The position numbers and the translations under genes were made by a program. Positions 2,865-63,639 of a stretch of DNA of 64,000 bases are shown one piece after another. Source of the stretch: Aquipuribacter nitratireducens (GTDB lineage: Bacteria > Actinomycetota > Actinomycetes > Actinomycetales > JBBAYJ01); the NCBI RefSeq assembly GCF_037860835.1, contig NZ_JBBEOG010000002.1:1-64000 (forward strand), in the 5' to 3' direction. Numbering within the stretch: the stretch's first letter is position 1; each line of letters begins with the position of its first letter. Below the pieces are notes generated by a model, which was not told the origin of the DNA, did no database searches, and saw nothing but the letters and a program-made list of their open reading frames with translations.

Positions 2865-6305
<3,441 letters not shown>

Positions 6306-52366: not shown

Positions 52367-53554
52367 TCACACGCGGCCTCGCAGCAGCAGGTGCCAGTAG
52401 ACGCGCGGCTCGACGTAGCGGTCGACGACGAAGGTCGCGAGGCCCGGGCGGGTGAGGTCGGGCCACGGGACGGTCGGCGTCGGCCGGGCGTCGCGGTCGT
52501 GCTCGGCGAGCAGCAGGCGGCGTCGTGACGTGACGACCGGCGCGACGGTGTAGCCGTCGTAGCGCCGCAGCGGCTGTCCGAGCCGCTGTGCGGCGACGTT
52601 GTGGGCGACCACCGGCACCTGCCGGCGCAGCGCGCCTCCCGACGACAGCGTGCGGTGGGCCGCGACGTCGCCGAGGGCCCACACCCTCGGGTGGGCACGG
52701 TGCCGCAGGGTGTCCGGGTCGACGGCCACGAGACCGTCCGACCCCGGCGACGTGAGGCCGCTGCCGGCCACCCACCGCGGCGCCCGGTAGGGCGGGGCGA
52801 GGTAGAAGGCGTCGTACGGCTGCTCGGTCACGCCGTCGACCGTGCGGACCCGGAGGACGCGGGCCTGCGGGTCGACGCGCTCGACGACGCTCGACGTGCG
52901 CACCCGCACGCCGAGCTCCTCCGCCGCCTCCCGCAGCCGACGGTCGGCGCGCGCCTCGGCGACCAGCCGGTCCGCCTCGACGAGGAGCTCGATGCGCACG
53001 TCGGGCAGGACCCCGCTGCGGCGCCAGTGGTCCGCGGCGAGGAAGAGCGGCTTGAGCCCGACGGGGCTGCACGGGGTGTGACGCGACGACAGCGCGAACA
53101 CCGCGGTGCCCGCGCGCAGCCCCGCGAGCAGCGGCCAGGTCCGTTCGGCGAGGTCGGGCTCGTAGCTCGTGGCGGCGTGCGGCGTCGCCATGGCGGCCCG
53201 GGCGCCTGGGACCGCGTCCCAGTCGACCTCGGAGCCGGGGCACAGGACGAGGTCGCCGTACGCGAGGTCCCCGCCATCGGCGAGGCGGACGGTCGAGCGG
53301 TCCGCGTCCACCGCGACGACCCGGTCCCGGTACCAGCGACAGCCGCGCGGGACCAGCCCGGCCTGCGGTCGGCTCGCCTCCGCGAGCGTGGCCTGGCCAC
53401 CGGCGACGTACGACAGCAGCGGACGGTAGACGTGGACCTCGCGCGGGTCGACGAGCGCGACGTCGCGACAGCCGTCGCGCCGCAGCCGTGCGGCGAGGGA
53501 GAGCCCCGCGTTGCCGCCGCCGACGACCACGACGTCGTGCCGGCGGGTCTGCAT
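52367..53554 (-). CDS. Sulfide:quinone reductase-like flavoprotein missing one redox Cys
   Basis: 395 aa from ATG 53554; TAGCGT near 53600 is a likely -10. FAD binding is at VVVVGGGNAGLSLAARL and VWALGDVAAHRTLSSGGALR. It follows the type of SQR found in mitochondria and many bacteria: VHVYRPLLSYVAGGQ, VLCPGSEVDWDAVPG, HTPCSPVGLKPLFLAADHWR, and the C-terminal VEPRVYWHLLLRGRV. The first redox Cys (about residue 162) is kept. The second, normally in YDGYTSCPLVT, is replaced by Ala in YDGYTVAPVVT (about residue 338). Sulfide oxidation by the usual trisulfide mechanism is therefore doubtful. It is divergent from the Nuo-like operon. Confidence 0.88.
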   Translation of the reverse strand: MQTRRHDVVVVGGGNAGLSLAARLRRDGCRDVALVDPREVHVYRPLLSYVAGGQATLAEASRPQAGLVPRGCRWYRDRVVAVDADRSTVRLADGGDLAYGDLVLCPGSEVDWDAVPGARAAMATPHAATSYEPDLAERTWPLLAGLRAGTAVFALSSRHTPCSPVGLKPLFLAADHWRRSGVLPDVRIELLVEADRLVAEARADRRLREAAEELGVRVRTSSVVERVDPQARVLRVRTVDGVTEQPYDAFYLAPPYRAPRWVAGSGLTSPGSDGLVAVDPDTLRHRAHPRVWALGDVAAHRTLSSGGALRRQVPVVAHNVAAQRLGQPLRRYDGYTVAPVVTSRRRLLLAEHDRDARPTPTVPWPDLTRPGLATFVVDRYVEPRVYWHLLLRGRV

Positions 53555-53665: not shown

Positions 53666-54016
53666 GTGGAGGGCTACGTCGCGCTGACCGTCGTGCTCGG
53701 CTGCGCCTTCGCGGTCGTCGGGATCGCCCACCTCGTGCACCGGCGGACCGCCGTGGCGCCGGACGCGGTCGGAGCGTCGCCGGCTCAGTCGGGGGAGCGG
53801 CCGCGCGAGCACGCCCTCAGCCGGTTCCACGTCCGCTGGTACGCCCTCACCGTCGTCTTCCTCGCCTTCGACGTCGAGATGCTCTTCATGTACCCGTGGG
53901 CCGTCGTCGTCGCCGCCGAGGGCTGGGCGGCCGTCGTCGAGATGTTCGTCTTCCTCGTCGTCCTCATGGCCGGCGTCGTGTGGGCGCGACGGGAGGGCGC
54001 CTTCCGGTGGTCGTGA
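53666..54016 (+). CDS. nuoA: NADH-quinone oxidoreductase subunit A-like
   Basis: 116 aa from GTG 53666 (GTG 53657 is also in frame). Three membrane helices: YVALTVVLGCAFAVVGIAHL, FHVRWYALTVVFLAFDVEML and EMFVFLVVLMAGVVWARREG. FHVRWY...FLAFDVEMLFMYPWAV is the NuoA hallmark, with the conserved Asp-Val-Glu. The loop between helices 1 and 2 is long (HRRTAVAPDAVGASPAQSGE). First gene of the membrane-arm operon; its stop overlaps the next start. Confidence 0.93.
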   Translation: MEGYVALTVVLGCAFAVVGIAHLVHRRTAVAPDAVGASPAQSGERPREHALSRFHVRWYALTVVFLAFDVEMLFMYPWAVVVAAEGWAAVVEMFVFLVVLMAGVVWARREGAFRWS

Positions 54017-55134
54017 CACGCCTCGCGCGGGCGGCGGTCGCCCGGGCGCACGTGCTGGCGGTGGAGGTGCCGGGCCACCGGGCGGTCCGCGCGGGCGTCG
54101 AGGCGGCGGCCGACGCGCGTGGCTGGGTGCTCGCCGCGAGCCCGGCGGACGCCGACGTGCTCGCCGTCTGCGGTCCGCTCCACGGTCGGCTCGGCGACGC
54201 CGTCGCGACCGTGTGGGAGGACCTGCCGGGACCGCGGGCCCGGGTCGACGTCTCCGCCGCCGACGCCGCGGTCGCCGCGCTCGACGTCGCGGCAGCGGCG
54301 CTCCTCGACGACGACGCGGCGCGCGACGACGCGGCGGGCCGCTCGAGCGAGCCTCCCGGCGACGACCGCGACATGGCGTCGGAGGCCGACGACCGCGACG
54401 GCCTCGAGATGGACGTGCTCCACGTGCCCCTCGGCCCGGTCCTGCCCGCGTGGCCGGCGGGGCTGCGACTGCGCTGCGTTCTGGCCGGGGACGTCGTCAC
54501 CCGCGCGGCGGTGGAGGGCGTCGGTCCGCGCGTCGGTGCCGACCCTGGACCGTCCCCTCCGGTGGGTGGCCTGCCTGCGGCGGCTCGGCACCTCGACGCG
54601 GTGGCCGGGATGCTCCGGGTGGCCGGCTGGGACGGTGCGGCGCGGCGGGCACGGGCGCTGCGTGACGCCGTCGCGACGGGGGGCAGCGCGGTCGGCAGCA
54701 CGGTCGGCAGCACGGCGGGCGGCGACGCCGTGCGCGACCTCGCGGCGCTGCGGGCGCGGATCGCGCGGTCGTGGGTGCTGCGGTGGTCGACGCGGGGACT
54801 CGGCGTCCACGAGGGGCTCGACGTGCGTGACCGGCTGCTGGGACGGCTCGACCGGGCGGTCGCCGCGGTCGGGGACGGGAACCCGGACCTCGACGAAGCG
54901 GTGGAACGGGCCGAGTCGCAGGCCGCGGTCGACGCGCTGCCCGGTCTCGTCACCGGTCTCGACCTCGGCGCCGTCCGCCTCGTCGTCGCGTCCTTCGACC
55001 CCGACCTGTCGCTCGTGGCGGTGCCCGAGCCGCAGCCGGAGCCGGAGAGCGCAGGTCACGGGGGTCACGGGGGTCACGGGGGTCACGGGGGTCACGGGGG
55101 TCACGAGGGTCACGGGGGTCACGGCCATGGCTGA
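54013..55134 (+). CDS. Degenerate NuoB/NuoD-like fusion with His-Gly tail
   Basis: 373 aa from GTG 54013 (GTGA overlap; GTG 54007 also possible). It occupies the nuoBCD position. Residues ~10-75 (VLAASPADADVLAVCGPLHG) recall the NuoB segment ADVLLVTGPV but lack cluster cysteines. After an acidic linker, MDVLHVPLGPVLPAWPAG and LRCVLAGDVVTRAAVEG resemble the NuoD N-terminus (GPqHP...LdGEvV). AARHLDAVAGMLRVAGWDGA and RSWVLRWSTRGLGVHEGLDV resemble the core of the 49-kDa/hydrogenase large subunit. No Cys/His ligand set survives. The end is a run of GGH repeats. A decayed, possibly structural adaptor; function inferred only from position and weak similarity. Confidence 0.7.
   Translation: MTRLARAAVARAHVLAVEVPGHRAVRAGVEAAADARGWVLAASPADADVLAVCGPLHGRLGDAVATVWEDLPGPRARVDVSAADAAVAALDVAAAALLDDDAARDDAAGRSSEPPGDDRDMASEADDRDGLEMDVLHVPLGPVLPAWPAGLRLRCVLAGDVVTRAAVEGVGPRVGADPGPSPPVGGLPAAARHLDAVAGMLRVAGWDGAARRARALRDAVATGGSAVGSTVGSTAGGDAVRDLAALRARIARSWVLRWSTRGLGVHEGLDVRDRLLGRLDRAVAAVGDGNPDLDEAVERAESQAAVDALPGLVTGLDLGAVRLVVASFDPDLSLVAVPEPQPEPESAGHGGHGGHGGHGGHGGHEGHGGHGHG
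55054..55124 (+). repeat. 9-bp tandem repeat encoding the His-Gly tail
   Basis: About eight copies of GGTCACGGG (one variant GGTCACGAG at 55099-55107, last copy cut short) run through the end of the 54013 gene, giving a GHG/GGH repeat of roughly 24 residues. In-phase unit length means copy-number change would alter tail length without frameshift. The stretch ends at the nuoH start. Confidence 0.95.
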
Positions 55135-56041
55135 GGCGCTGCTCTTCCCGCTCGGCCTCACCGCCGTGCTCCTCGCCCTCGCGGCCCTCGCCGCCGGCCT
55201 CGACGCGGTGCTCGTCGAGGGGCCCGCGGCCTGGCGGGCCCCGTGGCAGGAGACCGCCCGCCTCGCCCGGCAACGGCGCCGCGCCCTCGCGTCCGCCGAC
55301 CGGCTCCTGTGGCGCCTCGGCGGTGCCGGGCTCCTCGTCGCCGCGCTGCTCATGGCCGCCGTCGTGCCGGTCGGCGGGCGGCCGGTCGCCGACGTGCCCG
55401 TGGGCGTCGTGTGGTTCAACGCCATGGACGTCGTCGTGTGGGCGGCCGTGTGGTGCCTCGGCTGGGGCGCCAACGCCGTGCACGGCCTCGTCGGCGGCTA
55501 CCGGTTCCTCGCGCAGGCCCTCTCCTACGAGCTGCCGCTCATGTTCGCCCTCACGGCGCCGGCGGTGGCGGCGGCGAGCCTGCGCATGACGGACGTCGCC
55601 GCCGCGCAGGCCGACCGCTGGTTCGTCGTCGAGATGCCCGTCGCGTTCCTCGTGTTCTGCGTCGGCGTGGTCGGGTTCTCCGTGCACGGGCCCTTCGCCC
55701 ACCCCGCCGGCGCGGACGTCCACGGCGGCGTGCTCGCCGAGCTGTCCGGCGTCGACCGCTGGGTCGTCCAGGCAGGCCGGTACGCGCTGCTCGCCGCCGG
55801 CGCCGCCTTCGGGGCGGCGCTGTTCCTCGGCGGCGGCACCGGCCCGTGGCTGCCGGGGTGGGTGTGGTCGCTCGTCACGACGCTCGCGCTCCTCGCGGTG
55901 CTCGTCGCCGGGCGCCGGCTGCTGCCCGTGGTGCGACCGGACCGGTTCGTCGAGGCCGGCTGGCTCGTGCTCCTGCCCCTCACCCTCGCCCAGGTGTTCG
56001 TCGTCTCGGTCGTCGCGGTCCTCCGCGCGGGCGGGGCCTGA
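55127..56041 (+). CDS. nuoH: NADH-quinone oxidoreductase subunit H-like
   Basis: 304 aa from ATG 55127, overlapping the upstream gene by 8 nt. About eight membrane helices. VVWFNAMDVVVWAAVWCLGW, GGYRFLAQALSYELPLMFAL and VVGFSVHGPFAHPAG correspond to the NuoH blocks lining the quinone channel, though the loop sequences are divergent (respiratory NuoH has RAAAQMISYE; here RFLAQALSYE). NuoH joins quinone reduction to proton pumping and normally contacts NuoB/D/I; here the only candidate partner is the degenerate protein at 54013. Confidence 0.9.
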   Translation: MAEALLFPLGLTAVLLALAALAAGLDAVLVEGPAAWRAPWQETARLARQRRRALASADRLLWRLGGAGLLVAALLMAAVVPVGGRPVADVPVGVVWFNAMDVVVWAAVWCLGWGANAVHGLVGGYRFLAQALSYELPLMFALTAPAVAAASLRMTDVAAAQADRWFVVEMPVAFLVFCVGVVGFSVHGPFAHPAGADVHGGVLAELSGVDRWVVQAGRYALLAAGAAFGAALFLGGGTGPWLPGWVWSLVTTLALLAVLVAGRRLLPVVRPDRFVEAGWLVLLPLTLAQVFVVSVVAVLRAGGA

Positions 56042-56054
56042 CCAGGAGGACCCG

Positions 56055-56651
56055 ATGACCGACCTCGTGACCGACCCCCTCCGCCTCGTCGAGGTGGTGG
56101 CGTTCTGGGCGCTCGCGGCGCTCGCCGTCGTGGCCGGTGTCCTCGTCTTCCGATGGGACTCGATGGCCCGGGTGACGTACGCCCTCGCGACGTCGTTCGT
56201 CGCCGTCGGTCTCGCGCTCGTCGTCGTCGACCTCCACTACATCGGGGCCGTCACGGTGCTCATGATGGTGATGGAGATGGCGATCATGGCCGTCTTCATG
56301 ATCATGTTCATGGGGATGAACCCGGCGCTCATGCCGATGGACATGACGCACCGGAAACGTCCCGCCGCGGTCGTCGCCGTGGCGACGTTCGTCGTGCTCG
56401 CCGGGGGTGCGCTGCTCGTGCCGTGGGAACGGCTCGCCGACCCGGTGCCGGGGGCCGGGAGCGCGAGCGCCGTCGGCGAGGCGGTCATGGGTCCGAAGAT
56501 GCTCGTGATGATGACGGTGAGCCCGCTGCTCTTCGCCACCCTCGTCGCCGGGGTCGTCCTCGCCTCCCACCGCACCCGCTACGACCGGCTCGGCGACGAC
56601 CTGCGCCGACGACCCGCCGACGACCCCCAGCCGGGCGGGGTGGGCCGGTGA
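56055..56651 (+). CDS. nuoJ: NADH-quinone oxidoreductase subunit J-like
   Basis: 198 aa from ATG 56055 with AGGAGG 7 nt upstream. Five membrane helices, including VVAFWALAALAVVAGVLVF, ALATSFVAVGLALVVVDLHY and an unusually Met-rich helix (TVLMMVMEMAIMAVFMIMFM). The HYIGAVTVLMMVMEM stretch matches NuoJ helix 3 (normally YvGAvmVLflFvvMm). A hydrophilic C-tail (RRRPADDPQPGGVGR) ends the protein, overlapping nuoK by 4 nt. Confidence 0.88.
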   Translation: MTDLVTDPLRLVEVVAFWALAALAVVAGVLVFRWDSMARVTYALATSFVAVGLALVVVDLHYIGAVTVLMMVMEMAIMAVFMIMFMGMNPALMPMDMTHRKRPAAVVAVATFVVLAGGALLVPWERLADPVPGAGSASAVGEAVMGPKMLVMMTVSPLLFATLVAGVVLASHRTRYDRLGDDLRRRPADDPQPGGVGR

Positions 56652-56950
56652 GCCTCGAGGCGGTGCTCGTCGTCGCGTCCGCGTTGTTCAGCGTCGGGCT
56701 GTACGGGGCGCTCACGCAGCAGGTCGTCGTCATGGTGATGATGGGCCTCGAGCTCATGCTCAACGGCGTCATCCTCGCCGTCGCAGGGTTCTGGTACTTC
56801 CTCGCGCCCGAGCCGACCGGGCAGGTCCTGCTCCTCGTCGTCATCGCGGCGATGACGGTCGAGATGGCGATGGGCTTCGCCGTCGCGACGCTGCTCCACC
56901 GCTCCGCCGGTACGGACATGGTCGACATGGCCACGGAGCTGTCCGGGTGA
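56648..56950 (+). CDS. nuoK: NADH-quinone oxidoreductase subunit K-like
   Basis: 100 aa from GTG 56648. Three membrane helices: AVLVVASALFSVGLYGALTQ, MGLELMLNGVILAVAGFWYF and LLLVVIAAMTVEMAMGFAVA. The two buried glutamates needed for proton transfer are present (GLELMLNGV and MTVEMAMGF). Standard NuoK length. Overlaps nuoJ and nuoL by 4 nt each. Confidence 0.94.
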   Translation: MSLEAVLVVASALFSVGLYGALTQQVVVMVMMGLELMLNGVILAVAGFWYFLAPEPTGQVLLLVVIAAMTVEMAMGFAVATLLHRSAGTDMVDMATELSG

Positions 56951-58896
56951 GCGCGGCCCTCGGCGGTGCCGCGCTGTGGGCGCTCGTCCTCCTGCCGGGG
57001 CTCGTCGGCGCCGTGCTGTGCGCGGCCGGCCGCCGGGCCGGGCCGCTCGCGGGGCCGGTCGCGCTCGTCACCGTCGTCGTCGTCGCCGGCCTCGCCGCAG
57101 CCGTCGCGTGGTGGACGCCGACCGTCGCGGCGCCGTTCGTGCTCGCCGAGCTCGGCCTCGCCGTCGACGCCCTCGCGGCGCTCGTCGTGCCCGCGGTCGC
57201 GGTCGTCACCGCGCTCGTCGTGGCGTGGGTCGTGGCGTCGGGGGCCCGCGAGGAGCGCGTCGCGGCCGCGCCGGCGGCCGTGCACGGCGTGCTCCTGCTC
57301 TTCCTCGCCGCGGTCCTCCTCACGGCGACCGCGAGCACCCTGCCGGCGCTGCTCCTCGGCTGGGAGGTGATGGGCGCGGCGTCGTACGCGCTCATCGCCG
57401 CGCCGTGGCGCGAGCACCGGGCCGCTGACGCGGGGCTCACCGCGTTCCTCACGACGCGTGCGGCGGACCTCGGGCTCTACGTCGCGGTCGCCGCCGCCCT
57501 CGCCGGCGGTGCGGGCCTCGGCCTCGCCGACCTCCCCGACGCACAGGGGATCTGGCGGGACGTCGCGGCCGCCGGGCTGCTCGTCGCGGCGCTCGGCAAG
57601 GCCGCCCAGCTGCCGTTCAGCGCGTGGCTGTCGCGGGCGATGGAGGGTCCGAGCCCGGTGAGCGCGCTCCTGCACTCCGCGGCCATGGTCGCGATGGGCG
57701 GGTACCTCCTGCTCCGGACGAGCGACCTGCTCGCCGCCACCGGGTGGGCGGCGACCGCGGCGGCGTGGGTGGGGGTGCTCACCGCGCTGCTGCTCGGGCT
57801 GGTCGCCCTGACCCAGAGCGACCTCAAGCAGGTCCTCGCGGCCTCCACCGCCTCGCAGCTCGGGTTCGTCGTGCTCGCCGCCGGGACGTCGCCCTCGGGC
57901 GGCGCCGCCCACCTCGTCGCCCACGCCGCCACCAAGGCGGCGCTGTTCCTCGCCGCCGGCGTGTGGCTGCAGGTGCTCGGGACGAAGGCCCTCGACCGGC
58001 TCGACGGGGCGGCCCGGCGGACGCCCGGCGTGGGTGCCGCTGCCGTGGTCGCCGGGTGCGCCCTCGCCGGCGTCGCCCCGCTCAGCCTGTGGGCGACGAA
58101 GGACGCCGTCCTCGCCGGCGCCCTCGAGACGTCGCCGTGGCTGTACGCGTGCGGGCTGGCCGCCGCGGCGGTCGCCGCGGCGTACGCCGCCCGTCTCGTC
58201 ACCGTGCTGCTGCGCCGCCCTCCGGCGGAGTCCCCCACGCCGACGGCGCCCGTCTCGGGCGGGCAGACCGCCGCGGTCGTCGCCCTCGCCGCCGGCGCGG
58301 CGGGGCTGGGGGTGCTCGCCCTGCCCGGCCTCCTCGACCCGCTCGGTCGCGCGCTGACGGGCGCGGCGCCCCCGCACCCGGGCGTGGTGGAGGTGGTCGG
58401 GACGGCCGTCCTCGTGCTCGTCGTCGGGGCCGTGGTCGTGGTCCTGACCCGTCGGGACGCGTTCCCTCGGGCGACGTGGGCGGAGGGGTGGCTCGGCCTC
58501 GGCCGCCTCACCCACGCCGGTGTCGTCCGACCCGTGCTCGGGCTCGCGGGATGGTGCGCGCGCGTCGACGACCACGGCGTCGACCGGGCCGTCCACGCCG
58601 TCGCGACCCTGGCGCTCGCCGCCGGCGCCGGCGCGGCGCGTGCCGACGACGGCGGTCTCGACGCTGCCGTGACCCGGACGTCGCGCGGGACCGTCGGCCT
58701 GGCCGGCGCCTCCGCGCGCGTCGACGACGGCGTCGTCGACGCAGGCGTGGAGCGGGTCGCGGCAGGCGCGCGCGGGCTCGGGCGCCTGGCCCGCCGACCG
58801 CAGACCGGCCGCGTCGACGAGTACTACCTCCAGCTCGTCACCGGTCTCGCCGTCCTCCTCGGTCTCGCCGTCGTCCTCCTTCTGGTGGTGGTGTGA
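56947..58896 (+). CDS. nuoL: NADH-quinone oxidoreductase subunit L-like
   Basis: 649 aa from GTG 56947. An antiporter-like subunit of about 14 membrane helices plus a C-terminal arm. Core motifs: LLLGWEVMGAASYALIA (conserved Glu), ALGKAAQLPFSAWLSRAMEG (Lys) and PSPVSALLHSAAMVAMGGYL. HATKAALFLAAGVW carries the second Lys. The C-terminal ~110 residues are unusual: three related units ARVDDHGVDRAV, ARADDGGLDAAV and ARVDDGVVDAGV, in a long amphipathic stretch before the last helix (YYLQLVTGLAVLLGLAVVLL). That segment corresponds to the lateral helix region of NuoL. Confidence 0.94.
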   Translation: MSAALGGAALWALVLLPGLVGAVLCAAGRRAGPLAGPVALVTVVVVAGLAAAVAWWTPTVAAPFVLAELGLAVDALAALVVPAVAVVTALVVAWVVASGAREERVAAAPAAVHGVLLLFLAAVLLTATASTLPALLLGWEVMGAASYALIAAPWREHRAADAGLTAFLTTRAADLGLYVAVAAALAGGAGLGLADLPDAQGIWRDVAAAGLLVAALGKAAQLPFSAWLSRAMEGPSPVSALLHSAAMVAMGGYLLLRTSDLLAATGWAATAAAWVGVLTALLLGLVALTQSDLKQVLAASTASQLGFVVLAAGTSPSGGAAHLVAHAATKAALFLAAGVWLQVLGTKALDRLDGAARRTPGVGAAAVVAGCALAGVAPLSLWATKDAVLAGALETSPWLYACGLAAAAVAAAYAARLVTVLLRRPPAESPTPTAPVSGGQTAAVVALAAGAAGLGVLALPGLLDPLGRALTGAAPPHPGVVEVVGTAVLVLVVGAVVVVLTRRDAFPRATWAEGWLGLGRLTHAGVVRPVLGLAGWCARVDDHGVDRAVHAVATLALAAGAGAARADDGGLDAAVTRTSRGTVGLAGASARVDDGVVDAGVERVAAGARGLGRLARRPQTGRVDEYYLQLVTGLAVLLGLAVVLLLVVV

Positions 58897-60423
58897 GTGC
58901 TCTCCCTCGTCGTCTTCCTCCCGGCGCTGGCCGCCGCCGTCCTCGGGCTCGCGCGCGGGCTTCCCGACCGGGTCGCGCGCTGGGCGTGGGTGCTCGTCGC
59001 CGCCGTCGAGACCGTCCTCGTGCTGGGGCTGTGGCTCGCCTTCGAGGACCCGGGCCGGGGGCGGCTCGCGTTCGAGGAGCAGGTCCGCTGGCTGCCCTCG
59101 CTCGGCAGCAGCTACCACGTCGGTCTGGACGGGCTCAGCCTGCCGCTCGTCCTCATGACGAACGTCGTGTTCCTCGCGTGCGCCGTCCACGCCCTCACGG
59201 AGCGGCGGCGACCCCGCGCGCAGGCCGCACTGTTCCTCTTCCTCCAGGCCACGTGCCTCGGGGTGTTCGCCGCCGCGGACCTGCTCGTCTTCTTCGTGTT
59301 CTTCGACCTGTCGATCGTCGGCATGTACGCCGTCATCGCCGGCTGGGGGCACCGGGACGCCGCCCGGTCGGCTCTCAAGTTTTTCCTCTACACGTTCCTC
59401 GGCAGCCTCGTGCTCCTCCTCGGCTTCATCGGGCTGTTCGCCGCATCCGGCGACGCCGGCCCCCGCACGTTCGACATGGTCGAGCTCGCCGCGCGCCCGC
59501 CCCTCGTCGACCGGCCGCTCGCGGGCGGCCTCGTCCTCGTCGCCGTCCTCGTCGGGCTGGCCGTCAAGATCCCCACCGTCCCGTTCCACACGTGGCTGCC
59601 GCCCGCCCACACCGACGCACCCGCCGTCGGCTCGGCCGTCCTCGCCGGCGTGCTCCTCAAGCTCGGCACGTACGGCCTCGTCCGCATCGCGGTGCCGATG
59701 CTGCCGGAGGCGTGGCGCTCCCTCGCGTGGGTCGTCGTCGCGCTCGGGGTGGTGTCGGTGCTGTGGGGCGCACTGGTCGCCCTCGCCCAGACCGACGTCA
59801 AGCGCATGATCGCCTACACGTCCGTCAACCACATGGGCTACGTCGTGCTCGGGCTCGGGGTGGCGGGTCTGCTCGCCGACGGCGCCCCCGACGCGTCCCG
59901 CGAGGAGGCCGCGGTGACGGCGGTGTCCGGGGCGCTCACGCAGATGGTGAGCCACGGCCTCATCACCGCCGCGCTGTTCCTCCTCGTCGACCTCCTGTGG
60001 CAGCAGCGCGAGGACTACTCCCTCGACGCCTACGGCGGGCTCGCGCGCGTCGCGCCGGTGTTCTCCGGCCTGTTCGCCGTGGGGGCGTTCGCCTCCCTCG
60101 GGCTGCCCGGGTTCAGCGGCTTCGTCGCGGAGGTCCAGGTGTTCGCCGGCAGCATCGCGCTCGCGCCGGTGACGGCGGTCGCTCTCCTCGGGATCCTCCT
60201 CACGGCGGCCCTGTACCTGCGCGCGCTGCAGCGCCTCGTCGTGGGGCCCGTGGCGGGCCGCTCGGTCGGGCTCGCCGACCTCGCGCCGCACGCCACCGTC
60301 GCCGTCGCCGGGCTGCTCGCCCTGTCGGTGCTCGTCGGGCTCCTGCCCGCGGTGCTGCTCGACGTCGTCGCCCCCGCCGCACAGCACGTCGTCGACGCCC
60401 TGTCGGGGGCGGACCTGCCGTGA
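58897..60423 (+). CDS. nuoM: NADH-quinone oxidoreductase subunit M-like
   Basis: 508 aa from GTG 58897, starting right after the nuoL stop. About 14 membrane helices. LGSSYHVGLDGLSLPLVLMT near the N-terminus, FFDLSIVGMYAVIAGWG, VKIPTVPFHTWLPPAHTDAP, AVLLKL-like GVLLKLGTYGLVRIAVPMLP and DVKRMIAYTSVNHMGYVVLG are all NuoM blocks with the pumping lysines. Normal length and intact. Coupled to nuoN by overlap (GTGA). Confidence 0.95.
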   Translation: MLSLVVFLPALAAAVLGLARGLPDRVARWAWVLVAAVETVLVLGLWLAFEDPGRGRLAFEEQVRWLPSLGSSYHVGLDGLSLPLVLMTNVVFLACAVHALTERRRPRAQAALFLFLQATCLGVFAAADLLVFFVFFDLSIVGMYAVIAGWGHRDAARSALKFFLYTFLGSLVLLLGFIGLFAASGDAGPRTFDMVELAARPPLVDRPLAGGLVLVAVLVGLAVKIPTVPFHTWLPPAHTDAPAVGSAVLAGVLLKLGTYGLVRIAVPMLPEAWRSLAWVVVALGVVSVLWGALVALAQTDVKRMIAYTSVNHMGYVVLGLGVAGLLADGAPDASREEAAVTAVSGALTQMVSHGLITAALFLLVDLLWQQREDYSLDAYGGLARVAPVFSGLFAVGAFASLGLPGFSGFVAEVQVFAGSIALAPVTAVALLGILLTAALYLRALQRLVVGPVAGRSVGLADLAPHATVAVAGLLALSVLVGLLPAVLLDVVAPAAQHVVDALSGADLP

Positions 60424-61886
60424 CCGGGATGTCGATGCACGGCGCCGACACGCTCCTCGTCCTGCCCGAGCTCGTCGTGCTCGTCGGCGCCGTCGCGACG
60501 CTCCTGCTCGGGTCCTTCCTGCCACGGCAGCGGCAGTGGACAGCACGGCTCCTCGCCGTGGCGGTGCTGGCCGGTGCCGTGGTCGTGAGCGTCGTCGCCC
60601 CGCGCGTCGGTGCGGGCGCGGAGGGCCCCACCACCGCCTTCTCCGGCACGTTCGCCGTCGACGGCGCCACGACGGTCGTCCGCGTCGTCCTCTGCCTCTC
60701 GACGCTGCTGGTCGTCGGGCTCGGCGTCGACGAGCTCGCCGGCGTCCCGCGCGAGTCCGACACGTACGCGCTGCTCCTCCTCGGCACGCTCGGCGGGCTC
60801 GTGCTCGCCTCCGCCACCGACCTGCTCGTCCTCGCCGTCGCGTTCCTGCTGTCGAGCGTGCCGCTGTACGGGCTCATCGGCCTCGCCGGCACGAGCCGTG
60901 CGGCCGAGGCCGTCCTCAAGGCCTACCTCCTGGGCGCGCTCCTCGGCATCGTCATGCTCCTCGGGGTCGGCCTCCTCTACGCCGGCACGGCGGGCACGAC
61001 GTACGCCGAGCTCGCCGAGCGGCTCCCCGCCTCTCCCGCGGCGCTCGCGGGCGCCGGGCTCGTCGCCGTCCTCGTCGGGCTCCTCTTCGAGGCCGGGGCG
61101 GTGCCCGCCCACTTCTGGGTGCCCGACGCCGCCCAGGGCGCCTCGACGACGGCGGCGGCGTTCCTCACGACCGTGCCGAAGGTGGCGGCGCTGCTCGCGG
61201 CGTACCGGTTCCTCGAGGCCGCCACCGCCGGCGGCACCGACCCGGGCCTGACCCGCACCGCGCTCGTGGTCGTGGGCGTCGTCGCGGTCGCGTCCATGAC
61301 GCTCGGGAACCTCGCGGCGTTCTGGCAGGACGACGTCCGGCGGCTGCTCGGCTGGTCGACCGTGAGCCAGGTCGGCTACGTCCTCCTGCCGGTCGCCGTG
61401 GTCGGCGCCGAGCTCGCCCTCGCGAGCCTCCTCGTCTACCTCGCCGGGTACGCCGTCACGAACCTCACGGCCTTCGCCGTCGTGGCGGCGCACCGGGACG
61501 CCCGCTCGATCGCGGACTGGGCGGGTCTGGCTCGCCGGTACCCGGTGACGGGGGTGGCGCTCGTCGTCGCGCTGCTCGGGCTCGTCGGCACCCCGCCGAC
61601 GGCGGTGTTCGTCGGCAAGCTCGCGACGTTCGGCGCCGCCTGGGACGCCGGCGCGGGCTGGCTCGCCGTCGTCGCCGTCCTCAACACCGTGGCGAGTCTC
61701 TTCTACTACCTGCGCTGGCTCGCTCCCGCCTTCCGTGCGGTCGCCGACGCGCCGGGCGGCGACGACCCCCGGCGTCCGCTCGCGTGGGCGTCACGGGCGG
61801 CCGCGGCCGGCTCGGTCGGCGTGCTCGTGGTCGGGCTCGCCGCGGGCGTCGTCGTGGCCGCGGGCGGTGGGGCACCGGTCCGCTGA
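60420..61886 (+). CDS. nuoN: NADH-quinone oxidoreductase subunit N-like
   Basis: 488 aa from GTG 60420 (ATG 60429 also in frame). Around 14 membrane helices. Conserved parts: LLVLPELVVLVGAVATLLLG, VPAHFWVPDAAQGASTTAAA, FLTTVPKVAALLAAYRFLEA and QDDVRRLLGWSTVSQVGYVL. Third antiporter-like subunit and last gene of the operon; the next gene follows after 55 bp with its own likely promoter. No nuoB, C, D, E, F, G or I appears on either side. Confidence 0.94.
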   Translation: MTGMSMHGADTLLVLPELVVLVGAVATLLLGSFLPRQRQWTARLLAVAVLAGAVVVSVVAPRVGAGAEGPTTAFSGTFAVDGATTVVRVVLCLSTLLVVGLGVDELAGVPRESDTYALLLLGTLGGLVLASATDLLVLAVAFLLSSVPLYGLIGLAGTSRAAEAVLKAYLLGALLGIVMLLGVGLLYAGTAGTTYAELAERLPASPAALAGAGLVAVLVGLLFEAGAVPAHFWVPDAAQGASTTAAAFLTTVPKVAALLAAYRFLEAATAGGTDPGLTRTALVVVGVVAVASMTLGNLAAFWQDDVRRLLGWSTVSQVGYVLLPVAVVGAELALASLLVYLAGYAVTNLTAFAVVAAHRDARSIADWAGLARRYPVTGVALVVALLGLVGTPPTAVFVGKLATFGAAWDAGAGWLAVVAVLNTVASLFYYLRWLAPAFRAVADAPGGDDPRRPLAWASRAAAAGSVGVLVVGLAAGVVVAAGGGAPVR

Positions 61887-61941: not shown

Positions 61942-63639
61942 GTGACGACTGGTGACGGCTCGGCGCTCGTGAGCGCCCTCGGGGGGCTGCGGGCGGAGCT
62001 CGACACCGTCGCGCTGCCGTACGAGGTGCCGGGTGTCGCGGCCTCCCGCGAGCTCGTCGACGCGGTGTGCCGGCAGGTCGACGACTACCTCCTGCCGCGG
62101 CTGGAGCGCCTCGAGGCGCCACTGCTCGTCGTCGTCGGCGGGTCCACGGGCGCCGGCAAGTCGACGCTCGTCAACAGCCTCGTGCGCAACGCGGTGAGCC
62201 GGTCCGGCGTCCTCCGCCCCACGACACGCGCGCCCGTGCTGGTCCACAACCCCGCCGACGCCCACTGGTTCGACGACCGGCGCATCCTTCCCGGGCTCGC
62301 CCGCGTGCACGGCCCCGAGGAGGACCTGCCGCCGGACCGGCCCATCACGACGGTGAGGCTGGTGAGCGAGGAGGCCCTCCCGGCCGGGCTCGCCGTCCTC
62401 GACGCCCCCGACGTCGACTCGGTCGTCGACTCCAACCGGGAGCTCGCCGCGCAGCTGCTCGCCGCCGCGGACCTCTGGCTGTTCGTCACCACCGCCGCCC
62501 GCTACGCCGACGCGGTCCCGTGGGGGCTGCTGCAGGAGGCCGCGGCCCGCGCGGCCGCGCTCGCCGTGGTCCTCAACCGCGTCCCCGCCGCCGCGATGAC
62601 CGACGTGCGGGACGACCTCGCGTCGATGCTGGCCGCGAACGGGCTCGGCGCGTCCCCGATGTTCACCATCGCCGACTCCGACGTCGAGCACGGTCTGCTG
62701 CCGCGCCGTGCCGTCGCGGGGCTGCACGCGTGGCTCACCGGCCTCGCCGCGGACGAGGCCGCGCGCGGTGTCGTCATCCGCCGCACCGTCACCGGCGCCC
62801 TCAACACCCTCGGCGAGCGGGTCGCCGTCGTCGCGGAGGCCGCCGACGCGCAGAACGCCGCCGCGACGGAGCTGCGGACGGTCGCGCGCGAGCGGTACGC
62901 CGAGGCGCGGCGCCGGCTCGACACCGCCCTGTCCGACGGCTCGGTCCTGCGCGGCGAGGTGCTCGCCCGCTGGCAGGAGGCGCTCGGCACGGGCGAGCTG
63001 TGGCGCGGCCTGGAGTCCGGCGTCTCCCGGGTGCGCGACCGGCTGGTCGGCTTCGTCCGCGGTCGCCGCGCGCCGGTGGAGCGGCTCGGCGAGGCGTTGC
63101 AGTCCTCGACGCACGCCCTCGTCGTCTCCGAGCTGACCGCGGCGGCCGGCGACACGGCCCGCGAGTGGCGGGCCCGCCCCGCCGGAGCGGCCCTGCTCCG
63201 TCTCGACCCCACGCTCGCGCGTCCCTCCGACGGCTCCGACGAGCGGGTGGAGCGGCTCGTGCGGGACTGGCAGAGCGCCGTCATCGACCTGGTCTCGGAG
63301 CTCGGCGAGGGCAAGAAGGCCCAGGCCCGTGCGGTCAGCCTCGGTGTCAACGGTCTCGGCTTCGTCCTCATGCTCGCGGTCTTCAGCCAGACCGCCGGGC
63401 TCACCGGCGGCGAGGTCGCGATCGCCGGCGGGACCGCGGTCGTCAGCCAGCGCCTCCTCGAGGCGATCCTCGGCGACGAGGCGGTCCGCACCATGGCGGC
63501 GAAGGCTCGCGCCGACCTCCTCGACCGGGTCGGCGTCCTCCTCGAGGGCGAGCGTCGCCGCTGGGTCGACGCCGCCCCCGTCGCCGACGCCGGCGCACGG
63601 GTCCGGGCGTCCCTCGAGCTCCTGCAGGAGGCCCGGTGA
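61942..63639 (+). CDS. Dynamin-like GTPase
   Basis: 565 aa from GTG 61942; TTGATC and CACAGT (61930-61935) upstream look like a promoter. The GTPase domain has G1 VVGGSTGAGKSTLVNSLV, a G2-like VLRPTTRAPVLVHNP, G3 VLDAPDVDSV and a G4-like VVLNRVP. A long helical stalk follows (ATELRTVARERYAEARRRLD, ALQSSTHALVVSELTAAAGD). Near residues 465-500 a hydrophobic hairpin (VSLGVNGLGFVLMLAVF, VAIAGGTAVVSQRLLE) could insert into membrane. This matches the actinobacterial dynamin-like pairs (DynA/DynB type). It overlaps the next GTPase gene by 4 nt. Confidence 0.85.
   Translation: MTTGDGSALVSALGGLRAELDTVALPYEVPGVAASRELVDAVCRQVDDYLLPRLERLEAPLLVVVGGSTGAGKSTLVNSLVRNAVSRSGVLRPTTRAPVLVHNPADAHWFDDRRILPGLARVHGPEEDLPPDRPITTVRLVSEEALPAGLAVLDAPDVDSVVDSNRELAAQLLAAADLWLFVTTAARYADAVPWGLLQEAAARAAALAVVLNRVPAAAMTDVRDDLASMLAANGLGASPMFTIADSDVEHGLLPRRAVAGLHAWLTGLAADEAARGVVIRRTVTGALNTLGERVAVVAEAADAQNAAATELRTVARERYAEARRRLDTALSDGSVLRGEVLARWQEALGTGELWRGLESGVSRVRDRLVGFVRGRRAPVERLGEALQSSTHALVVSELTAAAGDTAREWRARPAGAALLRLDPTLARPSDGSDERVERLVRDWQSAVIDLVSELGEGKKAQARAVSLGVNGLGFVLMLAVFSQTAGLTGGEVAIAGGTAVVSQRLLEAILGDEAVRTMAAKARADLLDRVGVLLEGERRRWVDAAPVADAGARVRASLELLQEAR

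Follow-up and report, generated by a model that had tools for sequence, protein, structure and literature searches.

A reduced complex I operon of Actinomycetota as a candidate for copper(I) handling

What can the membrane arm of respiratory complex I do when the subunits that supply it with electrons are missing? The question is raised by an operon of eight plus-strand genes, in the order A-X-H-J-K-L-M-N, at positions 53666-61886 of a 64,000-nucleotide (nt) stretch of the Aquipuribacter nitratireducens genome (contig NZ_JBBEOG010000002.1, positions 1 to 64,000; hereafter the window). Seven of its genes encode relatives of the complex I membrane subunits NuoA, NuoH and NuoJ to NuoN, and the second encodes a protein that we call X. 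We propose that the operon specifies a redox-inactive, complex I-derived, proton-coupled complex that acts in copper(I) handling, probably in efflux; we hold the chances of this reading to be about even, the transport step being the part that we infer.

A single peripheral subunit on a complete membrane arm

The genes of the operon, with the matches on which each assignment rests, are:

53666..54016, plus strand: NuoA-like subunit (Pfam PF00507, E 5.9e-25)
54010..55134, plus strand: X, predicted to be a fused, shortened NuoB-like and NuoD-like protein (AlphaFold, Foldseek, hhalign)
55127..56041, plus strand: NuoH-like subunit (Pfam PF00146, E 1.6e-41)
56055..56651, plus strand: NuoJ-like subunit, methionine-rich (Pfam PF00499, E 3.2e-9)
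56648..56950, plus strand: NuoK-like subunit (Pfam PF00420, E 1e-13)
56947..58896, plus strand: NuoL-like antiporter subunit (Pfam PF00361, E 3.5e-45; TIGR01974, E 4.8e-68, under cut-off)
58897..60423, plus strand: NuoM-like antiporter subunit (TIGR01972, E 3.2e-134, over cut-off)
60420..61886, plus strand: NuoN-like antiporter subunit (TIGR01770, E 5.3e-80, under cut-off; Pfam PF00361, over cut-off)

Each of the seven membrane subunits clears its Pfam cut-off, and Nuo models give the best scores for L, M and N, which bears out the contiguous cassette reported in a preliminary description made from the sequence alone. The 4-8 nt overlaps given there for most junctions are found at five of the seven; the L and M genes abut, and 13 nt separate H from J. 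The cassette holds no gene for NuoB, C, D, E, F, G or I, again as first described. A full canonical 14-gene nuo operon (nuoA-N), which the preliminary description had suggested looking for, lies at ~109-126 kb of the same contig, starting ~47 kb downstream of the cassette, in a genome of 3.83 Mb that is assembled in 26 contigs and 98.95% complete. Both the single PF00346 (NuoD) and the single PF01058 (NuoB) match in the whole genome (E <= 0.001) fall inside this canonical operon, and this genome-wide search, which covered nuoB and nuoD but not nuoC and nuoI, thus found no copies dedicated to the cassette. Comparison with the canonical operon by tblastn gives alignments for NuoA, H, L, M and N, five of the seven membrane subunits, at 27-37% identity.

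The arrangement is widespread. A scan of named genomes returned 222 X loci, and the best 80 of these were examined. All eight genes stand in the same order at 72 loci (at one, L098, a contig end cuts NuoN) and the remaining eight stop at a contig border, so that the order holds at all 80 loci within the limits of the contigs. With canonical NuoB, C, D, E, F, G and I as tblastn queries (E <= 1e-5), the 80 cassettes gave no internal match except one to NuoB (E 1.4e-6), which lies within X of locus L059; two NuoG matches in the same search are outside cassettes. The loci carry 34 genus and 17 family labels, the genera including Salinispora, Streptomyces, Mycobacterium (8/80), Micromonospora, Nocardioides, Cryobacterium and Curtobacterium (3/80). 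Among the A. nitratireducens genome and its relatives, X was found in 9 of 59 genomes, with the same order in the fetched loci where contigs permit. A sample of the class yielded X at E < 1e-30 in 19 of 296 genomes, and a sample of the phylum yielded it at E up to 1e-15 in 12 of 296, nine of them outside the class. We did not score as X the weak profile matches in 83 further class-sample genomes (E 9.5e-6 to 1e-3), which mostly cover profile positions 44-85; the one in the A. nitratireducens genome is its canonical NuoB. Co-occurrence with canonical complex I says little: NuoD accompanies X in 19 of 19 carriers of the class sample, yet it is near-universal there (278/296). Automatic gene starts were late for X at eight loci and for NuoM at L040.

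Phylogeny sets these operons apart. A NuoM tree was built from 30 X-type rows, 8 of them distant and the other 22 drawn from the class scan and the window, together with 16 canonical rows and 5 Streptomyces-type second nuo operons. A branch with support 100/97 divides all X-type rows from both other groups. The tree supports the view, already taken in the preliminary description, that X-type operons encode a distinct, reduced complex. The Streptomyces second nuo was considered as the direct parent and rejected for its separate NuoM branch.

What, then, is X? The protein comprises a NuoB-like domain (residues ~1-110), a NuoD-like domain (~122-338) and a His-rich C-terminal tail, and AlphaFold, given an alignment of 50 X proteins, models it with pLDDT 86.8 and pTM 0.85. 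Residues 123-337 of the model superimpose on NuoD of mycobacterial complex I with Z 16.3 and an rmsd of 3.1 over 204 residues at 18% identity, and the 50 structure matches listed for X are complex I, NDH or formate hydrogenlyase chains; the VIA-align table is chiefly a test of residues 126-338. The NuoB half is assigned from several kinds of match: Foldseek pairs the first ~110 residues with NuoB chains at probability 1.00 and E 0.01 to 0.02 (none at E <= 0.001), hhalign aligns X 26-86 with NuoB 57-109 (probability 88.8, pairwise E 2.5e-6), and profile matches and the one tblastn match in L059 point the same way. Profile comparison with NuoD gives three collinear segments, each weak on its own, and with NuoC and NuoI it gives no match. 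X of the window has no Pfam match, the most telling NCBIfam hint being a weak NuoB match (E 0.017 to 0.019), and all three X proteins tested from distant genomes match PF00346 (NuoD) at E 4e-17 to 1e-13. X therefore appears to be a NuoB-NuoD fusion, shortened in the class to which the window belongs, and the relationship to NuoB and NuoD on which the first proposal depended is borne out by the model. On sequence and model evidence, the membrane arm appears complete (A, H, J, K, N, M and L) and the peripheral arm appears to have shrunk to this one subunit.

Residues lost and gained

The fused subunit has apparently lost its redox chemistry. No cysteine column is common to all 50 X sequences; the best is occupied in 41, and one member has no cysteine at all. 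As judged from the alignment, X lacks the Fe-S cysteine set, including the ligands of NuoB for cluster N2. The GPQHP segment of NuoD reads GPVLP in X, in a region where the segment alignment is weak and the fold match strong.

NuoH has changed in parallel. Residue tables compared 72 X-type rows with 16 canonical rows. In the X-type rows, the loop between transmembrane helices (TM) 1 and 2 is deleted (Q58, R60 and R65 in canonical numbering), E229, R232, D236, E239 and E241 are mostly replaced, E264 has become R in 70/72, and the canonical ETNRxPFDLxExE loop has been stripped of most of its charges; D93, R171, E180 and E251 are kept. Nine distant rows retain E180 in one case and D236 in seven, and have Asp for E239 in four. 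The losses were therefore stepwise. Since X lacks the Fe-S cysteines and NuoH has lost quinone-pocket loops and charges, electron input through X, as the preliminary description had proposed, is unlikely. Its other suggestion, a pure antiporter-like assembly, comes closer in that the electron and quinone machinery is gone.

The route for ions is better preserved. NuoA D69 and E71 and NuoK E35 and E72 are kept in 71 or 72 of the 72 X-type rows, as are NuoL E140, K218, H243, K294, H326, K330 and K385 in all 72, and other polar positions of NuoL change (canonical K189, for example, to Thr in 62/72). NuoM carries Asp for the TM5 Glu (D137) in 71/72 and keeps K224, K255 and E412. In NuoN, the TM5 Glu is replaced by Leu or Phe in 72/72 (L143 in the window), the TM7 Lys by Glu in 12/72 including the window (E224), and K254 and K400 are kept; seven of seven distant NuoN rows, which exclude L208 and L214 because their contigs end before NuoN, also lack the TM5 Glu. 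The helix labels follow complex I topology. The pumping residues first read as intact in K, L, M and N are thus intact in K and L, but M has exchanged Glu for Asp and N has lost its TM5 Glu.

Against this background of loss, two subunits in particular have gained methionine. We called a Met column gained if Met occupied it in >=80% of the 72 X-type and <20% of the 16 canonical rows, and lost in the reverse case. Gained columns number 15 in NuoJ, 6 in NuoK, 4 in NuoM, 2 each in NuoA, NuoH and NuoL and none in NuoN; lost columns number 4 in J, 1 each in K and A, 4 in H, 10 in L, 4 in M and 3 in N. Those gained in NuoJ are M37, M70, M71, M73, M75, M78, M82, M86, M88, M93, M95, M97, M145, M149 and M152, and X-type NuoJ also has H99. 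NuoJ of the window possesses every conserved Met, and its TM3 and following loop read LMMVMEMAIMAVFMIMFMGMNPALMPMDMTH. E74 of NuoJ is likewise new (72/72 X-type rows, versus Ala in 16/16 canonical rows). The NuoK gains include M29, M31, M69, M73 and M75. Much of this set extends beyond the class: in nine distant NuoJ rows, from eight genomes outside it, M37, M70, M71, M75, M78, M82, M86, M88, M95, M97, M149 and H99 are present in 9/9, with M73, M93, M145 and M152 absent or partial, and distant NuoK keeps M29, M31, M32 and M69. NuoA contributes H49, H55, M72 and M75, characteristic of X-type operons (72/72; H55 70/72). Conserved soft-metal (Met/His) residues are therefore present in NuoJ, K and A of the membrane part.

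X itself often bears His/Met/Asp-rich stretches. The tail of window X has 9 His per 40 residues, and at least 6 His in 40 residues were counted in 37 of 70 X proteins, from which the eight with late starts were left out, versus 40 of 805 flanking proteins. In all three distant X proteins tested (L212, L213 and L214), the Pfam heavy-metal-binding domain HMBD (PF19335, E 8e-23 to 3e-12) and the NuoD domain occur in one protein; an HMBD motif was seen by eye in X of L211, which brings the domain to 4 of 10 distant loci. The distant X protein at 8244-10373 of L213 has two heavy-metal-binding domain matches. X of the window and X of L043 have no Pfam match, and HMBD is not apparent in the other distant X sequences printed.

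Copper genes on chromosomes and plasmids

The families that recur most in the flanks of the 80 loci include DUF305, HMA-type P-ATPase, ArsR-type regulator, CsoR, HMA chaperone, multicopper oxidase and Csp-like protein; Pfam supplied names for five representatives of the flank families, and the rest were identified by eye, in some cases with annotation as well. Eight copper families were counted. At least one of them is present at 42 of 80 X loci and in 0 of 40 control windows, which were 20-kb stretches set at preset positions in ten genomes (917,580 flank and 800,000 control bases). At least two were found at 29 loci and at least three at 18. Fisher p values for copper families at X loci versus controls are 3.6e-10 and 1.7e-6, figures that overstate independence. 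Under stricter cluster lists, the 24 loci with at least two families span 15 of the 34 genus and 11 of the 17 family labels.

The association reaches beyond the class, where 5 of 10 loci have at least two copper families. There, copA-csoR-copZ precedes nuoA on the same strand by 137 bp (L213), 210 bp (L214) or ~2.5 kb (L212). ArsR-family regulators were noted in the flanks of 18 of the 80 loci, often divergent and close (L080, L081, L083, L087, L111, L119 and others); such a gene is a possible metal-responsive regulator, also where copper families were not found.

X occurs on 14 plasmid records. Ten plasmid regions were examined through gene tables that are incomplete; seven have annotated metal-related genes within 12-14 kb, and three (Gordonia and two Rhodococcus) have no clear ones. 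Curtobacterium plasmid pC1a (L215) places a heavy-metal ATPase 81 bp before nuoA and adds a multicopper oxidase, DUF305, a metal-sensitive regulator and an HMA protein. The conjugative Arthrobacter FB24 plasmid 1 (L217) carries a multicopper oxidase and DUF305, and a plasmid of M. paragordonae has an ArsR/SmtB regulator and a heavy-metal ATPase directly downstream. At L215, L217 and L218, the plasmid-borne operon sits amid recombinase, conjugation or IS genes, a setting that suggests horizontal spread.

The immediate neighbors in the window are of other kinds. Divergent from the operon, at 52367-53554 on the minus strand, is a gene for a FAD oxidoreductase like type III sulfide:quinone reductase (SQR; E 4.4e-36, under cut-off). 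We considered it as an operon partner and rejected it, a relative being found near only 1 of the 80 other X loci. A dynamin-type GTPase gene (61942-63639, plus strand) starts 55 bp after the end of nuoN, and a second GTPase seems to follow it; G001 (L030), the nearest relative, also has the dynamin-type gene, but there apart from nuoN, and the downstream GTPase has no match among the 80 loci. Far from the operon, ARAGORN calls a 94-nt tRNA-Ala(GGC) at 4412-4505, unusually long for a tRNA-Ala.

A proposed role and its alternatives

Taking these observations together, we tentatively go a step further than copper(I) handling, with slightly less confidence: complex I may have been turned into a proton-driven copper(I)/silver(I) exporter, its quinone module into a metal-loading cap and its E-channel region into a methionine path, the whole being carried in copper islands and plasmids across Actinomycetota. 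X would take cytosolic copper(I) (or silver(I)) and hand the metal to a Met/His-rich path in NuoJ, K, A and H near the former E-channel. Proton influx through NuoL and NuoM would drive metal export, with the long-range coupling of complex I operating backwards, and NuoN, with its broken residue pair, might serve as a relay instead of a pump.

Several observations weigh against a copper role. The eight copper families were looked for in the window and the 38 kb that follow it, and none was found; ArsR and MerR matches are >30 kb away from the operon. Near 38 of the 80 loci, too, none of these families was found. The families were chosen from the same flanks in which they were later counted, the genomes are related and not independent, and the control windows were set at preset positions in other genomes. 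Within the proteins, the His-rich stretch of X is variable and missing from nearly half of the 70 X proteins, HMBD was seen in only one distant family and not in window X, and a stripe of Met on one face of NuoJ TM3 was rejected, 34% of random sets being as extreme. The NuoJ structure model is poor (pLDDT 66.9) and was used for helix borders only. We found no experiment on the operon, and published work ties it to salt, not copper.

That work (Penn and Jensen 2012, PMC3314556; Ian 2014, PMC4018334; Sun 2018, PMC6002675; and the SM17/SM18 paper of 2019, PMC6676996) describes a "partial NDH-1 operon" of the same gene order, nuoA-hypothetical-nuoHJKLMN, in Salinispora, Kocuria and Streptomyces. 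Loci from these three genera are among those examined here. In the passages of these papers that treat the operon, proton or sodium pumping is proposed, in marine, osmotic or salt adaptation, X is hypothetical or goes unmentioned, and nothing is said of where X comes from or of a role for the operon in copper; one of the strains was isolated from mine fluids rich in copper and a Kocuria from a copper mineral, origins that the authors read in osmotic terms. We found the origin of X, a Met-rich NuoJ or a copper link of the operon nowhere in the open-licence literature searched, and three features looked new: X as a NuoB-NuoD derivative without Fe-S cysteines, the Met gain of NuoJ and NuoK, and the copper neighborhood.

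The main rival to copper export follows from this literature. The complex may be a redox-free, Mrp-type cation/H+ antiporter exchanging Na+ or K+ for H+ under salt or pH stress, with copper genes nearby because stress islands are shared. NuoL, M and N are antiporter-like, the loci without a nearby copper family fit, and, as far as these reports go, Salinispora, Kocuria and Streptomyces from sponges have the operon and some land relatives lack it. However, it is not evident what invariant Met in NuoJ and NuoK, or a metal-binding domain in some distant X, would do in Na+ or K+ exchange, and the operon is common beyond marine genera, as in Mycobacterium and Curtobacterium. We consider this explanation unlikely, if the strongest of the alternatives.

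Scarcely more improbable, in our estimate, is a second rival in which the complex assists copper export with no copper path of its own, X sensing cytosolic copper and gating proton flow, or passing copper to a neighboring ATPase. The flexible, metal-binding-like stretches or HMBD of some X proteins would suit such a role, as would the copA-type gene found <=500 bp upstream on the same strand at 9 of the 80 loci, but 61 of the 80 have no copA-type gene in the searched flanks, and it leaves unexplained why conserved methionines are most numerous in NuoJ and NuoK.

We regard a quinone oxidoreductase as quite improbable. Here another donor would feed X, possibly a copper redox center or a flavoprotein such as the SQR-like protein; the NuoB/NuoD-like fold of X, the multicopper oxidases in the flanks of 11 of the 80 loci and the divergent SQR-like gene in the window speak for it. 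Against this, X has no conserved ligand set for a fixed metal center, NuoH has lost its quinone loops and X, apparently, the NuoD quinone motif, and the SQR-like gene has the rarity near X noted above. That the operon is a decaying relic without function, as the loss of canonical motifs in X and NuoH might imply, is barely credible, given a gene order kept across 34 genus labels and new residues kept outside the class.

The X-type complex can be set beside several known systems. It shares seven homologous membrane subunits with respiratory complex I (NDH-1), and X is related to NuoB and NuoD; unlike complex I, it has no Fe-S or flavin subunits, quinone-pocket residues or NuoN TM5 Glu, and its NuoJ and NuoK are Met-rich. 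Mrp antiporters make redox-free use of NuoL/M/N/K-type subunits, with a gene set that lacks NuoH and NuoA, whereas the X-type operon retains both, together with a NuoB-NuoD-derived subunit; the A. nitratireducens genome has a separate antiporter-domain gene pair on contig 6, presumably Mrp. Group 4 hydrogenase and Ehr complexes have a NuoB-type Fe-S subunit and a separate NuoD-type large subunit, whereas X is fused and without the Cys set. Copper efflux systems such as CopA and CusABC have HMBD, Met-rich paths and control by CsoR, features echoed by HMBD in some distant X and by csoR, copZ, copA and multicopper oxidase genes beside some loci; to our knowledge, none of this type is built on a complex I membrane arm.

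The Streptomyces-type second nuo is likewise a second, reduced complex I in actinobacteria, but it keeps NuoB, C and I, its NuoJ is Met-poor (0.6%) and its NuoM branches separately. The preliminary description had such clusters keep B, D and I. In the five examined (L132, L134, L136, L138 and L143), which run A-B-C-H-I-J-K-L-M-N, B, C and I are present and NuoD was not found; at L143, no NuoA was detected, and the stretch stops short of N. In three genomes with a second nuo that were checked, the only other PF00346 match lies elsewhere, in a seemingly hydrogenase-like place.

Complex I couples chemistry at one end to distant proton movement, and how it does so is a long-standing question. The X-type complex would be a natural redox-free complex I in which the proximal acidic residues survive together with two antiporter-like subunits, with metal ions apparently acting where quinone once did, and it would let long-range coupling be probed with a titratable ligand. 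If the copper reading is true, it would also represent a new type of copper resistance on actinobacterial chromosomes and plasmids, hidden under the label of NADH-quinone oxidoreductase.

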